Part shown: positions 4,939 through 62,122 of the stretch, piece after piece
How positions within the stretch are numbered: the stretch's first letter is position 1
Layout: every line of letters starts with the position of its first letter
Assembly: GCA_904397865.1 (NCBI GenBank)
Contig: CAJFOS010000016.1
Span: forward strand, 1-64,000
DNA length: 64,000 nucleotides
Direction of reading: 5' to 3'
From: Candidatus Allochristensenella caecavium
GTDB lineage: Bacteria > Bacillota > Clostridia > Christensenellales > QAND01
Position numbers and translations under genes: made by a program
Notes under the pieces: generated by a model
Database searches by the model: none
What the model was told of the DNA's origin: nothing
The model's input: only the letters and a program-made list of their open reading frames with translations

Positions 4939-5691
4939 TTACAGGCCCAGCACGTCGTTCATGTCATAAAGCCCGGCGGATTTCTTTACCAAAAAACGGG
5001 CCGCGCGCAGCGCGCCGTTGGCAAATACGCCGCGCGATGTCGCCGTGTGTCGGATTTCGATGGTTTCATCCGTTCCGCAGAAGAATACGGAATGTTCTCC
5101 TGCGATGTTGCCGCCGCGCAAGCTCATAATGCCCACCTCGTTGCCCGTGCGTTCAGCAACGATGCTCTGCCTGTCATACACGGGTTGAAGCGCACCGTCC
5201 CGCGTTTCGTTGAGCGAATTAAACAGCATCACGGCCGTGCCGCTTGGCGCATCCACTTTTTTGTTATGGTGCTTTTCCACAATTTCAATGTCATATGCAT
5301 CGCCCAACGCCTGGGCGGCTTTTTGTACCAATGACCGCATCACCGCAATCCCGACGGAGTTATTATAGGAAAAGAACACGGGAATCTGTTCAGAGGCTTC
5401 CACCAACCGCGCACGCTGCCGGTCGTTGTGTCCGGTGGAACAAATCAACGTGGGCAGGCGATGCGCCATGCTGTAATCCAGGATATCGTCCAACGATTCT
5501 GCACGTGAGAAATCAATCACCACATCCGCCGCAACGTCCACATCCCGTATGTTGGTAAACACGGGGAAGTCCGCCGCCCCCGGCACCAGGTTCACCCCGG
5601 CGACCACCTGCATATCCGGTTGTCCCATTGTAGCCTGTACGACCTGTTGTCCCATCCGGCCCAAAGCGCCGACCAATAAAATACGAATCAT
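4939..5691 (-). CDS. dapB: 4-hydroxy-tetrahydrodipicolinate reductase
   Basis: This 250-residue enzyme reduces the DapA product to tetrahydrodipicolinate with NAD(P)H in lysine and meso-diaminopimelate synthesis. The N-terminal Rossmann motif is GALGRMGQQV near residue 8. The catalytic and substrate-binding signature EKHHNKKVDAPSGTA lies near 140-154. A normal C-terminal half follows. The start is the ATG preceded by AGAGGAGGAAAAACG. A longer frame reaching 5766 would run through the dapA terminator and lacks family similarity. It is last in the riboswitch-controlled asd-dapA-dapB series. Confidence 0.96.
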   Translation of the reverse strand: MIRILLVGALGRMGQQVVQATMGQPDMQVVAGVNLVPGAADFPVFTNIRDVDVAADVVIDFSRAESLDDILDYSMAHRLPTLICSTGHNDRQRARLVEASEQIPVFFSYNNSVGIAVMRSLVQKAAQALGDAYDIEIVEKHHNKKVDAPSGTAVMLFNSLNETRDGALQPVYDRQSIVAERTGNEVGIMSLRGGNIAGEHSVFFCGTDETIEIRHTATSRGVFANGALRAARFLVKKSAGLYDMNDVLGL

Positions 5692-56283: not shown

Positions 56284-56630
56284 GTTTGCGAGTAAGCCGG
56301 ATGGTCGCGAGCTTCGGCTCGAGGAAAGTCCGAGCATCGTAGGGCAGGGTGCTGGGTAACCCCCAGTGAAGGCGACTTCAAGGAAAGTGCAACAGAGAGA
56401 TACCGCGAACCCCGCATGGCGGGGCCGTAAGGGTGGAAAGGTGAGGTAAGAGCTCACCAGCGGCCTGGCGACTTGTCCGCTATGTAAACCCCACCTGATG
56501 CAAGGTTGATAGAGGGACATAGGTGGCGGCCCGTCACGTCCCTGGGTAACCGCTTGAGCGCATCGGCAACGATGCGCCTAGATAGATGGCCATTCAAGAC
56601 AGAACTCGGCTTATAGACTTGCTCGCAAAC
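56284..56630 (+). ncRNA. rnpB: RNase P RNA, bacterial class A
   Basis: The roughly 347-base RNA is closed by helix P1 (GTTTGCGAG at the 5' end with CTCGCAAAC at the 3' end). It carries the conserved elements GAGGAAAGTCCGAGC, ACAGAGAGATACCGC, AGGGTGGAAAGGTG...GTAAGAGCTCACC, TAAACCCCACC, TAGATAGATGGCC, and AGAACTCGGCTTATAG. It is the catalytic RNA that matures tRNA 5' ends. The GGTAAGAGCTCACCAG region indicates an ancestral A-type core. A terminator follows. Confidence 0.97.
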
Positions 56631-56640
56631 GTGTTGATTC

Positions 56641-56671
56641 AACGGCTTCCGAAAAGGAAGCCGTTTGTTTT
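56641..56671 (+). terminator. terminator of rnpB
   Basis: The stem AACGGCTTCC/GGAAGCCGTT is followed by TGTTTTTT. Confidence 0.92.
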
Positions 56672-56737
56672 TTGCGGGCATACTTCCGTTTTCCGCGGAC
56701 AGACTAAAACCAAATGGAAAAAAAGGGGATGCTGTCC

Positions 56738-59700
56738 ATGGATGAAACACAGGTGCTCGCCGGCGGGGCGCACATTGCACAGGCACATGCGATGGAATGG
56801 ATTGCACAGGCGGATACACAACACGCCGTTTCCATCCGCACTTCGCGTCTGTTGGTACGCCAGCTGCAAAAAAACAGGCAGCCACAGGGTGCGGCTTATG
56901 TTGCCCTGGGAAATAACCGGACGTTTGTCTTGCAGCGTGCACAGGCCTGCCGGCACGTATGGGAAAAGCGAAAAGTGCCGCTGCTAAAAACCGGTATTTT
57001 TTCCGGCGAAACACGCTTGTATGCGCTGATGGCACAAATGGTTCTCCGGCAACGGGGAAATGTACAAAAGAATAATATCGATACAGTGCTGGCGCGTTAT
57101 GCCGTCTATGGTACGCTGACGCTACAGGAGGCTGCGCTGATACGGCCAGCGGTGGAACTGGCCTTGCTGGAATTTCTGCGCCAGGTGCTGCTGGAGGATG
57201 AAAAGGACGAGCAGGAGCGGAAAAACGCACGCCTGTTTGCCCGCAAACTGAAGGGAAGGCATGCATCCAGCTGGTTGAAGACCGCCCTGTTTTATGCACG
57301 ACATGGCGGTGTGGCGTTTGCCGCTTTTTTGCAGGAGGAAGCAAAAGCGTGTCCGTCCCATATTTATACACAGGCCTGTGATAATACGGCGTTGCCGCTG
57401 GGTACTTCAGCCCGGCGCGTATGTGATTTGTATGCCCGCCAGCGGCGCGAGCGGGCGGAACTGGTGCGCGATATCGTACGGTCGTTGCGGCGTATGGCCC
57501 ACATGACAAACGCGGATTGGATGCAGCTGGCAAGTCCGGCTGCCGCCATGCTTGCACAGGAACCCGACTTTGCCCGGCAAGATAGAGACACCCAGGCATA
57601 TATCCATGCACTTGTAGCGCGCCTGGCGCAGAAAAGTGGTTGCACGGAACAGGCGGTTGTCCGCACGGCCCGTTCTATTTGTGAACGGAATGCCTGCCGT
57701 TTTTGCAATGTGTTTTTGGCCGATGAGAAACGGATGTTATACCATCGGCTGCACCTGCGGTTCTGTCACTATCCATCCCCATGGCGCAGACGACTCTATT
57801 TATTGGGAACAGTGGGCGTCTGGGCGGTCAGCCTGGGGCTGTTCCTCCTTTTTTGTTTGCAAAACCAGGCGCCGTGGCTGGAAACACTGGGGCTTTGTGC
57901 GTTTGGAAGCCTGATGGTTTGGACGATGGCACAAATGTGTGTAAACCAGTTGTTTGATTGGTGCATACCTGCGACGTTTCTTCCCAAACTTGAACAGATG
58001 CCGCCACGGGCACGCACTGCAGTGGTTTTGTCGGTTGTAATTGAACAGACCGAACAGATAGATGCCTACTTTGCTGCGCTGGAACGCCAGTACTGTGCAT
58101 TCCGAGAGGCCGAACGGATGATTTTGCTCTGCGACCTCCCGCCGACCAACACCAAGGACAACGCTGTATTCATGCCCTGGCTGAACCACGGCGTACAGAC
58201 CGTACAGCGCTACAATGCCAAAGGCAACGGTCGCTATACGTTTGCTGTCCGTCCGCAAAGATGGGTCAAAGGGGAAGGTAAATGGATGGGCTGGGACCGA
58301 AAGCGTGGAGCGCTGCTGGCGCTTAACCGCGCGCTGTTGGGACGGCGTAATGAATTGTGGTGTTACGGAGAACCGCTACCCCATGACATCCAATTTGTGT
58401 TGACGATTGATGCAGACACCATGTTACCCGCAGGGGAAGCGCAGCGGCTGGTCTGCACGTTGGCGCACCCTGCCAATGACCGGTATGCTGTCGCACAGCC
58501 GCACATGACGGCTGCGGCGTCCGCACGCACGCGTTCCTGGTTTTCACGCTTGTATGCAGGACGGGCAATGGATGGGTATGGCAGTACCGCGGGCCGTGTT
58601 TGGATGCAGCTAACAGGCTATGGCCCCTACGCCGGTCAAGGCTTGTATGACATAGCCGCTTTTACGGAAGCGGCGGAATGCATTCCGGCCAATCGTTTTC
58701 TTTCCCATGCGCTTTTGGAAGGCGCATTGGCGGGCTGTGCGGTTGTCCAAGATGTATGCGCGGTACAATCCTTTCCGCAGCATTATACGTCTTATGCTAA
58801 ACAACAGCATCGATATATCCGTGGCGATTGGCAATGGATGCCATGCGCCGCCGGAGTGCAGAAGGACGTACATGGCAGCAAATTGCGGCTGCCCTGGTAT
58901 ACGCGTTTGCAGATGGTGGACCGCATGCGGCTGAGCCTGACGGCATTGATGGCCACGCAGCTGTTTGCCATTGGCGCGTCGTTTTCGCGTTTGCCGTTTG
59001 CATTGTATCTGGTGCTGGCGTTTGTGCCGTTTGCGCTGCCCTTCCTGTTGGAGGCGGGACAGGGGATTTACTTCTGGTGCAGGGGCGCATTGGCTCAGGA
59101 AACGGGCAGGAGCATAATGCCCGCTGCCGGCCGTGCCGTCGCGGACGTTCTGCTTTGCGCATTTGAGGCGGATATACAGCTGGATGCTGCCGTGCGCGCC
59201 AGCATCCGCACATGGATAACGCAGAAGCATCTGATGCAATGGGTGACAACCGGACAGGCGGAGAAGGGCGACGCACGCACCTGGGTGGGCTACATACGTC
59301 TGATGGCCCCTGCGCTGGTGTTTGATATGCTGGTCATTGGGTTCACCTATCTACAGAAGCCATGGCTGCTGGCCCCTACGATTGGCGTTTGTTTTTGCTG
59401 GACGCTTTCCCCTCTGTTTGCCAATGCCCTGGATATGCGCCCTGCACCATCCGTGTGGAAGAAAGACGCGGCGGAGGATTTGCGACTGTCGGCAAGACAG
59501 GCGGCACGGCTATTCGAACGCTTTGGCGGGGCCCAACGCCGGTTTTTGATGCCGTGTTATGTGGAGACGCGCAGGGGTGGTGGAAGAAAGGTAGCGACAT
59601 ATACTACGCCAAAGACACTGGGGTTTGCGTTGTTGGCACCGCTGTGCGCGCAATGTCTGGGCGATACGGAGCGTGTGCTCGCCCTGCATCGAATAGCCCG

Positions 59701-60565
59701 GCAGATGGATGCGCTGGAACAGTTGCCGCAATGCCATGGGCACCTGTCCGAACGCATTTCATTGGACAGTGGTTGTTCTGCAACGCCGTATATTCGCACA
59801 TCGGATTCCGCTTATTTGTGCGCATGTCTGATGGTTTGTGCGCAGGCGATGCAGGACTGGGGAGAGGAAGCCTTGGCGATGCGTATGCTGGCATTTGCAC
59901 AGCGGATGGATTTTCATGTATTGTATGACGAAGCCAGCGGCCTGTTGGCAGACGGTTTGGACCTGCGCACGGGAACATGGATAGTCGGGCAATCGGAGGA
60001 CGGCGGCGGAGAGAACGATTTAGCTGGATGCATTTCCGTTGGCCGGGGCGAGGTACCGGCCGCATATCTACAGCGTCTGGCCCGGGCAAGGGTGCAGGGG
60101 GAACGTACAACGCCAAAGCGGGGCGATGAAACCATATCGAAGTTATCGGTTTATGGGAAGCATGTTTCACCACAATGGACGGTGGCCAAGGCGGGGGACG
60201 GCCATGCCGGTTGCGGAATGGACATGGCAATGAAAAGACAGCCTGCCAATTGGATAGGGGAACCGGCCCGCCTGAACCGACACAGTGGCCAGAAAAACAG
60301 CTTGCAACCGGCCTGCATCTGCAAGGCTTGCCGCCAGGGAATGCGGCTGGCTGCGATAACCAATGTGCTGTGCGATGCTTGTTTAAGCGATTGGTTTTTG
60401 CGCAACCCGGAGATTGCGGCGTCCGTCCCGCTCTTGCAAAAAGAGGGAATGGCACAGGTCGGCCAACAAATGGATATGTTTTGGACGGAAAGTTTGCCTA
60501 AAAATGAGAGAATCCCGCGGTATCAGTTGAAAAAAAAGGAAATGTATAATATAATAACACACTGA
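56738..60565 (+). CDS. membrane glycosyltransferase like the N-terminal half of cyclic beta-1,2-glucan synthase
   Basis: This is a 1275-residue protein. Residues 1-340 are a helical N-terminal region with LARYAVYGTLTLQEAALIRPAVELALLEFLRQV as in NdvB/ChvB. Two membrane helices (about 352-400) precede a GT84/GT2 catalytic domain with LTIDADTML near 556 and QQHRYIRGDWQ near 689. Further membrane helices lie at about 732-775 and 854-898. A glucoamylase-like region (PF10091 type) then has SDSAYL and ENDLAGCISVGRGEVPAAYLQRLARARV near 1090-1120. It stops there: the GH94 phosphorylase half of full cyclic glucan synthases is absent. The ATG at 56738 has AAGGGG nine bases upstream; an ATG at 56714 lacks a site. 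Confidence 0.8.
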   Translation: MDETQVLAGGAHIAQAHAMEWIAQADTQHAVSIRTSRLLVRQLQKNRQPQGAAYVALGNNRTFVLQRAQACRHVWEKRKVPLLKTGIFSGETRLYALMAQMVLRQRGNVQKNNIDTVLARYAVYGTLTLQEAALIRPAVELALLEFLRQVLLEDEKDEQERKNARLFARKLKGRHASSWLKTALFYARHGGVAFAAFLQEEAKACPSHIYTQACDNTALPLGTSARRVCDLYARQRRERAELVRDIVRSLRRMAHMTNADWMQLASPAAAMLAQEPDFARQDRDTQAYIHALVARLAQKSGCTEQAVVRTARSICERNACRFCNVFLADEKRMLYHRLHLRFCHYPSPWRRRLYLLGTVGVWAVSLGLFLLFCLQNQAPWLETLGLCAFGSLMVWTMAQMCVNQLFDWCIPATFLPKLEQMPPRARTAVVLSVVIEQTEQIDAYFAALERQYCAFREAERMILLCDLPPTNTKDNAVFMPWLNHGVQTVQRYNAKGNGRYTFAVRPQRWVKGEGKWMGWDRKRGALLALNRALLGRRNELWCYGEPLPHDIQFVLTIDADTMLPAGEAQRLVCTLAHPANDRYAVAQPHMTAAASARTRSWFSRLYAGRAMDGYGSTAGRVWMQLTGYGPYAGQGLYDIAAFTEAAECIPANRFLSHALLEGALAGCAVVQDVCAVQSFPQHYTSYAKQQHRYIRGDWQWMPCAAGVQKDVHGSKLRLPWYTRLQMVDRMRLSLTALMATQLFAIGASFSRLPFALYLVLAFVPFALPFLLEAGQGIYFWCRGALAQETGRSIMPAAGRAVADVLLCAFEADIQLDAAVRASIRTWITQKHLMQWVTTGQAEKGDARTWVGYIRLMAPALVFDMLVIGFTYLQKPWLLAPTIGVCFCWTLSPLFANALDMRPAPSVWKKDAAEDLRLSARQAARLFERFGGAQRRFLMPCYVETRRGGGRKVATYTTPKTLGFALLAPLCAQCLGDTERVLALHRIARQMDALEQLPQCHGHLSERISLDSGCSATPYIRTSDSAYLCACLMVCAQAMQDWGEEALAMRMLAFAQRMDFHVLYDEASGLLADGLDLRTGTWIVGQSEDGGGENDLAGCISVGRGEVPAAYLQRLARARVQGERTTPKRGDETISKLSVYGKHVSPQWTVAKAGDGHAGCGMDMAMKRQPANWIGEPARLNRHSGQKNSLQPACICKACRQGMRLAAITNVLCDACLSDWFLRNPEIAASVPLLQKEGMAQVGQQMDMFWTESLPKNERIPRYQLKKKEMYNIITH
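60527..60555 (+). promoter_or_regulatory. promoter of tig, inside the end of the upstream gene
   Basis: TTGAAA, 17 bases, TATAAT. A second overlapping TATAAT lies five bases earlier. Confidence 0.75.
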
Positions 60566-60616: not shown

Positions 60617-62122
60617 ATGGCTGCTAGTGTAAAAAAGCTTGAAAAGAGCACGGTTGAGCTTCGTGTGAGCATTCCGGACGATATGTTTGAAGAGGCCCTG
60701 AACACCGCCTATCTGCACGAGAAGGGAAAATATGCGGTACAGGGATTCCGCAAAGGGCATGCGCCCCGTCATATGATTGAACGGTTTTACGGTCCGGACG
60801 TGTTTTACGATGCCGCAATTGACATCGTGGCGCCCAAACTTTTGGAACAGTCCTGCAAAGAGAACGATTTGACGCTGGCCGGCCGGCCGACGTTGGATGT
60901 GGATATGGACGAAGAAAAGCGCATTGTGCTGGTATTCGTCGCACCGGTATATCCGGAAGTCAAATTGGGTAAATACAAAGGGTTGGAAATTATCAAGCGT
61001 GAAGCGGCGGTAGACCCCGCGCAGGTGGAAGCAGAAGTAGTTACCATGCGCAACAACCGTGCCCGCTATATCGAAGTGGACCGTGCGATACAAGACGGAG
61101 ACCGTGTGATTTTGGACTATAAGGGCCGTGTGGGCGACACTTATTTTGAAGGCGGTTCGGCGGAAAAGCAGACGTTGGATATTGGCAGCGGCCGATTCAT
61201 CCCGGGATTTGAAGAAGGGATGATTGGCATGAAGGCGGGCGAGGACGGCGAGGTGGCCGTGACGTTCCCGGAACAGTACCATGCGCCTGAGCTGGCAGGC
61301 AAGGACGCCGTTTTCGAAGTGCATGTGCATGAAGTGCGTGAAAAGGAACTGCCGGAAATTGACGACGACCTGGCCAAAGATGTCAGCGAATTTGATACGC
61401 TGGAAGAATGGAAACAGGATATTCATGACCGTATCCTTGCGCGTGCGCAGCAAACGGCTGATACCAACATGAAAAACGAAGTGATTGCGGCGGCAGCCGC
61501 CAATGCAGAATTGGAAATTCCGGATGCAATGGTGGAAAGCCAGATGGATAGCCTGCTGCAGGATTTGCAGACGCGTCTTTCCTATCAGGGCATCAGCTTG
61601 AATGACTATTGCCAATATGCCGGAACGACGCCGCAAGCGCTGCGTGAACAGATGCGTGAGGATGCGACTCGCCGCGTGCGCAACCAGCTGGTGCTCGATG
61701 AAATTACCAAGGTAGAAGATATCAAAGCCACGGAGGAAGAGATTGCCGAACACGTGGCGGATTTGGCCAAACGTTATAATCAGGACCCCGACGCATTCGC
61801 CAAGAACATGACGGAAGACGACCGTAAATATATCAGTGAAGATGTGGCGATTGAAAAGACGCTCAAGTTCTTGCTGGATAATGCAAAACTGGTAGACGAA
61901 AAGAAAAAGGCGCCGGCGAAAAAAACGGCTGCTAAGAAGACGACCAAAAAGACCGACGAGGAAAAAGCACCGGCCAAGAAAACGGTCGCCAAAAAGACGG
62001 TAAAAGCAGAAGGTGAGAAGGCGGAGAAAAAGCCGGCAGCCAAGAAGAGCACCGCAAAGAAAACCGACGCGAAACCGGCTGCGAAAAAGACCACGAAAGC
62101 GAGCAAGAAGGACGCAGAATAA
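60617..62122 (+). CDS. tig: trigger factor with a Lys/Ala-rich C-terminal tail
   Basis: The ribosome-associated chaperone and peptidyl-prolyl isomerase is 501 residues. The ribosome-binding domain carries the signature FRKGHAP near residue 44. The FKBP-type domain (about 150-240) reads [11 protein letters not shown]...[20 protein letters not shown]. The helical C-terminal domain reaches about residue 425. The last 70-75 residues are an unusual histone-H1-like tail of AKKT/AKKS-type repeats. The ATG at 60617 has GGAGG 11 bases upstream; an ATG six codons earlier contains that site. It precedes clpP and clpX, the standard order. Confidence 0.96.

Follow-up and report, generated by a model that had tools for sequence, protein, structure and literature searches.

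A truncated cyclic-glucan-synthase-like gene between rnpB and tig is probably a catalytically disabled remnant

Between rnpB and tig, in the window (the whole 64,000-nucleotide stretch of Candidatus Allochristensenella caecavium DNA that was analysed), lies a long open frame whose product resembles cyclic glucan synthases. A previous, sequence-only reading had proposed that the product lacks the GH94 half and that it may make linear beta-1,2-glucan or another polymer, or else that the gene is truncated and maintained next to rnpB. The question is whether this frame encodes a working short synthase, a protein kept for some other role or a gene on its way to being lost. Our results favour the last of these. 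We put at roughly three in four the probability that the frame is an ancestral cyclic glucan synthase gene in the process of loss, now a catalytically disabled remnant which, judging from its residues, probably makes no glucan. The features of the locus are collected in Table 1.

Table 1. Features of the rnpB-tig locus, in window coordinates.
Feature	Position	Strand	Basis or remark
rnpB, RNase P RNA class A, directly upstream of the frame	56289..56629	+	Rfam RF00010, 282.9 bits
Probable rnpB terminator (10-bp stem, then T run)	56641..56665	+	Sequence inspection
Truncated cyclic-glucan-synthase-like gene, open frame	56714..60565	+	1283 codons
N-terminal domain, homologous to the Cgs N-terminal domain	56969..57793	+	Residues 86-360
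GT84 glycosyltransferase domain	58001..59083	+	Residues 430-790; alignment, AlphaFold mostly pLDDT near 90, Foldseek best 8rf9
DAD: D566, D568 (A. tumefaciens D624/D626), retained	58409..58417	+	Alignment
Y622, counterpart of primer tyrosine Y694, retained	58577..58579	+	Tyr in 30/30 relatives
A666 (GCG), at the catalytic-base position (Asp in relatives; D739 of A. tumefaciens, in the SHDLLEG motif)	58709..58711	+	Asp in 30/30 relatives
Y701, replacing RW-motif Trp (W774)	58814..58816	+	Trp in 30/30 relatives
GH189 cyclization-domain remnant	59459..60472	+	Residues 916-1253
Eroded part of GH189, without nucleophile Glu, E1400-equivalent and His-His pair	60080..60331	+	Alignment; AlphaFold pLDDT mostly <50
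tig promoter (TTGAAA-17-TATAAT), overlapping the final codons of the open frame	60527..60555	+	11/12 consensus positions
tig (trigger factor), intact downstream neighbour	60617..62122	+	

The likelier start of the frame is the internal ATG at 56738, with AAGGGG just 5' of it, as had been proposed before; about 85-110 bases separate the end of rnpB from the frame. At the other end, the homology to cyclic glucan synthases stops near residue 1253, and the tig promoter, a strong one that marks the 3' deletion edge, overlaps the final codons. It thus appears that GH94 was removed by a deletion extending as far as this promoter. The stop codon of the frame is probably accidental.

When the protein was compared with PDB sequences by phmmer, A. 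tumefaciens NdvB/ChvB (8rf0/8rf9) matched residues 77-1053 (E 3e-60), in agreement with the earlier assignment of a GT84-type catalytic domain with DAD and RYIRGDWQ, followed by the start of a glucoamylase-like region; the motifs TIDADT and QHRYIRGDWQ are both present. A weak second match covered residues 1206-1252, corresponding to the end of the cyclization domain, and the comparison with 8wy1 gave a significant match to the start of this domain and a weak one to its end. Pfam returned only sub-threshold matches to the protein and NCBIfam none, which points to strong divergence of the gene. Residues 400-1283 were modelled with AlphaFold from an alignment that included 25 relatives. The GT84-membrane core and the beginning of GH189 were predicted with confidence, and pLDDT fell mostly below 50 for residues 1123-1198 and 1243-1283. 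Foldseek searches with this model placed the cyclic glucan synthases 8rf9, 8rf0 and 8rfe first (TMq 0.78-0.81; single best match 8rf9, 0.81), followed by cellulose synthase and 8wy1. Over the first 1050 residues the domain order is that of A. tumefaciens Cgs, with the N-terminal domain, GT84, membrane helices and the start of the cyclization domain in common. Unlike that enzyme, the protein is about half as long, lacks GH94 and has an eroded cyclization domain.

The catalytic residues of GT84 were compared in an alignment with 30 relatives, in which columns at least 90% conserved were counted as conserved, and the key Cgs residues and their roles follow the structural study of the A. tumefaciens enzyme (PMC10901819). 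Counterparts of A. tumefaciens D527, D624, D626, Y694 and R773 are present. DAD, the primer Tyr (Y694, which is autoglycosylated in Cgs; PMC10901819) and the RW-motif Arg are thus shared with the A. tumefaciens enzyme. In contrast, Ala occupies the position of D739, the catalytic base of A. tumefaciens Cgs (PMC10901819), and Tyr that of the RW-motif Trp. The sequence-only reading had noted neither the change of the base nor the erosion of the cyclization domain. Losses extend over the domain: 25 of its 36 conserved columns are kept and 11 are lost, compared with 88-100% kept in the relatives, including those whose overall divergence is comparable. In A. tumefaciens, removal of the C-terminal half of Cgs abolished its function in vivo, as did substitution of key GT or CY residues (PMC10901819). 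D739 was changed in the named GT mutant only jointly with D624 and D626 (PMC10901819); that the single Asp-to-Ala change would suffice for complete inactivity is suggested by homology with GT2 enzymes.

For GH189, key residues were taken from the TiCGS cyclization-domain paper (PMC10834661). The beginning of the domain and its final helical segment can be aligned with TiCGS (8wy1), and the motif spacing in the relatives (44, 86, 180) equals that of E1356-E1400-E1442-H1536 in TiCGS. The acid/base Glu, E1356 in TiCGS, is retained here as E1100; the counterparts of the nucleophile E1442, of E1400 and of the pair H1536/H1537 are lost, and about 70 residues are missing. The possibility that both catalytic Glu residues fell in the lost stretch was ruled out by the TiCGS spacing, the nucleophile being the only one gone. 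Between residues 1128 and 1206 the protein has 79 residues, as compared to 139-153 in the relatives, and 13 of the 52 conserved columns of GH189 are kept, far fewer than in intact relatives. The other two low values belong to L035, a gene whose frame is broken, and to L014, a contig fragment. A frameshift behind the garbled stretch at 60085-60350 was also considered and rejected, as the GH189 profile matched only the gene's own frame and the other frames scored below 0.

Within the frame there is no GH94, and neither PF06165 nor PF17167 matched anywhere in the assembly (92.7% complete). The GH94 half is thus missing, as the sequence-only reading had it, and the separate GH94 gene elsewhere in the genome, for which that reading had suggested a search, was not found in this assembly. 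A profile search of the whole assembly with PF10091 likewise gave no match. That no GH94 or GH189 model matches anywhere in the genome, and that low model confidence coincides exactly with the eroded GH189 segment, both support the reading of the gene as a remnant.

The history of the locus can be followed in relatives. A homologue occurs in 143 of the 396 genomes of the order, and among the matches listed nearly all frames are ~2300-2900 aa long. Christensenella sp. UBA6094 (G003) has the gene order rpoD-NIF3-Zn ribbon-rnpB-CGS (2821 aa)-tig-clpP-clpX. Its synthase (L070/L085) has the rnpB-tig locus and neighbours in common with the gene described here, with clear homology over residues 86-1047, but it retains the catalytic residues and the C-terminal half, and its 2821 aa compare with 1283 codons here. 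In G026, a CGS of 2884 aa is followed by tig-clpP-clpX. In a sister genus (G001, from goat rectum) the same neighbours are present without a CGS, and rnpB and tig are separated by a gap of 160 bp; no CGS was found in G002, of the third genus of the family. The full-length synthase at rnpB-tig in UBA6094, together with the empty gap in the sister genus, indicates that an ancestral gene is being lost. The simplest history is a full-length ancestral gene at this locus that disappeared from G001 and G002 and survives here in reduced form. Searches for closer homologues with the same short form yielded none in the family, in 396 genomes of the order, in 391 genomes of the class or, with peptide patterns, in GTDB 220 contigs.

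Against the remnant reading stands the frame itself. It runs for 1275 codons without a stop, and the other five frames contain 12-40. In simulations of neutral drift, about 13-25 stops had arisen by the time that 20-30% of the residues were changed. Synonymous codon use is coding-like in the frame (0.08 bits, vs about -0.2 in other frames; 0.12-0.18 bits in the CGS of two relatives). The GH189 remnants all lie in one frame, and the deletions inside the domain preserve it. Stops or frameshifts, which are among the signs of a pseudogene, are thus absent, which argues that the protein was translated during most of its decay. The DAD, primer Tyr and RW-motif Arg also count against a mere remnant. 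Composition, on the other hand, is aberrant. The unusual residue make-up described previously (Cys, His and Gln) is real. Cys reaches 3.1%, as compared to 1.2% for the neighbouring genes and 1.6 +/- 0.4% for the relatives, and Gln 6.2% as compared to 2.6 +/- 1.1%; GC at codon position 2 is raised too, all of which fits relaxed constraint. The earlier suggestion of a truncated gene maintained next to rnpB is thus correct as to truncation and position, and, given the stop-free frame, the gene may also be maintained.

If selection has kept the frame, the product could be a pseudoenzyme, that is, a GT84-like membrane protein that still binds UDP-glucose and acts in a non-catalytic capacity, for example as a sensor or scaffold, the GH189 stub having become dispensable. 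The fully open frame, the retention of the UDP-coordinating Asp residues along with the primer Tyr and RW-motif Arg, and the confidently modelled core all agree with such a role, but the conserved GT84 columns were lost broadly, well beyond the base alone, and the aberrant composition and raised GC at codon position 2 also speak against it. Moreover, no closer relative has the same short form (about 870 genomes searched), and the two further genera sampled in the family lack the gene. We therefore regard this role as unlikely. The active short synthase suggested by the sequence-only reading, whose product would be linear beta-1,2-glucan or another polymer, could draw on the same retained motifs and the predicted fold of the GT84 core. 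However, Ala replaces a base that is Asp in 30 of 30 relatives, GH189 is ruined and the C-terminally truncated A. tumefaciens Cgs loses function (PMC10901819). That reading had itself named full-length homologues at the same locus and loss of catalytic residues as evidence against it, and both were found, the former in relatives such as UBA6094 and the latter in Ala666 with the missing GH189 nucleophile and His pair. The suggestion is thus unsupported, and we consider an active enzyme very improbable. Hardly credible at all is an artefact of assembly or base calling, by which a normal full-length gene was wrongly joined or corrupted. The assembly is a draft of 21 contigs at 92.7% completeness, but errors would not yield dozens of in-frame replacements across 3.8 kb without a stop. 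The genes on either side are intact and keep their conserved order, and no GH94 match was found anywhere in the assembly.

For the remnant, we infer the following order of loss. The need for the glucan would have relaxed first. Catalytic residues of GT84 and GH189 would then have been replaced and pieces of GH189 deleted in frame, and finally a single large deletion, extending to the tig promoter, would have taken the GH94 half. Any product would be a membrane protein that may still bind UDP-glucose but would not catalyse normal glucan elongation or cyclization; it could have a residual role. The locus would thus represent a large multi-domain glucan synthase on its way out of the reduced genome of a gut-type Christensenellales bacterium, and three stages of loss can be seen at rnpB-tig, namely full length, remnant and absent. 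A GT84 match with DAD and RGDWQ motifs is accordingly not proof of glucan synthesis. The loss is otherwise ordinary, the exception being the reading frame, which is still fully open. If that frame were kept by selection, the product would be a GT84 pseudoenzyme, and from a brief literature check we know of none described.

Other interrupted synthases were observed among the relatives. In three genomes of the class (L172, L173 and L174, in G705, G496 and G564) the synthase is split; its first frame, ~1845-1890 aa, stops short of the GH94 catalytic part, and this part follows directly 3' as a gene of its own in a different frame. The short frame L034 runs off its contig. L035 (G048), also in the order, has a short frame of 1349 aa in which the GT84 catalytic base is intact; a GH189 frameshift appears to have broken it. 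One in-frame TGA interrupts L037 (minus strand, near 5560) at about the same pre-GH94 junction, and beyond it homology resumes in the same frame; possible explanations are a split gene, an error in sequencing or readthrough.
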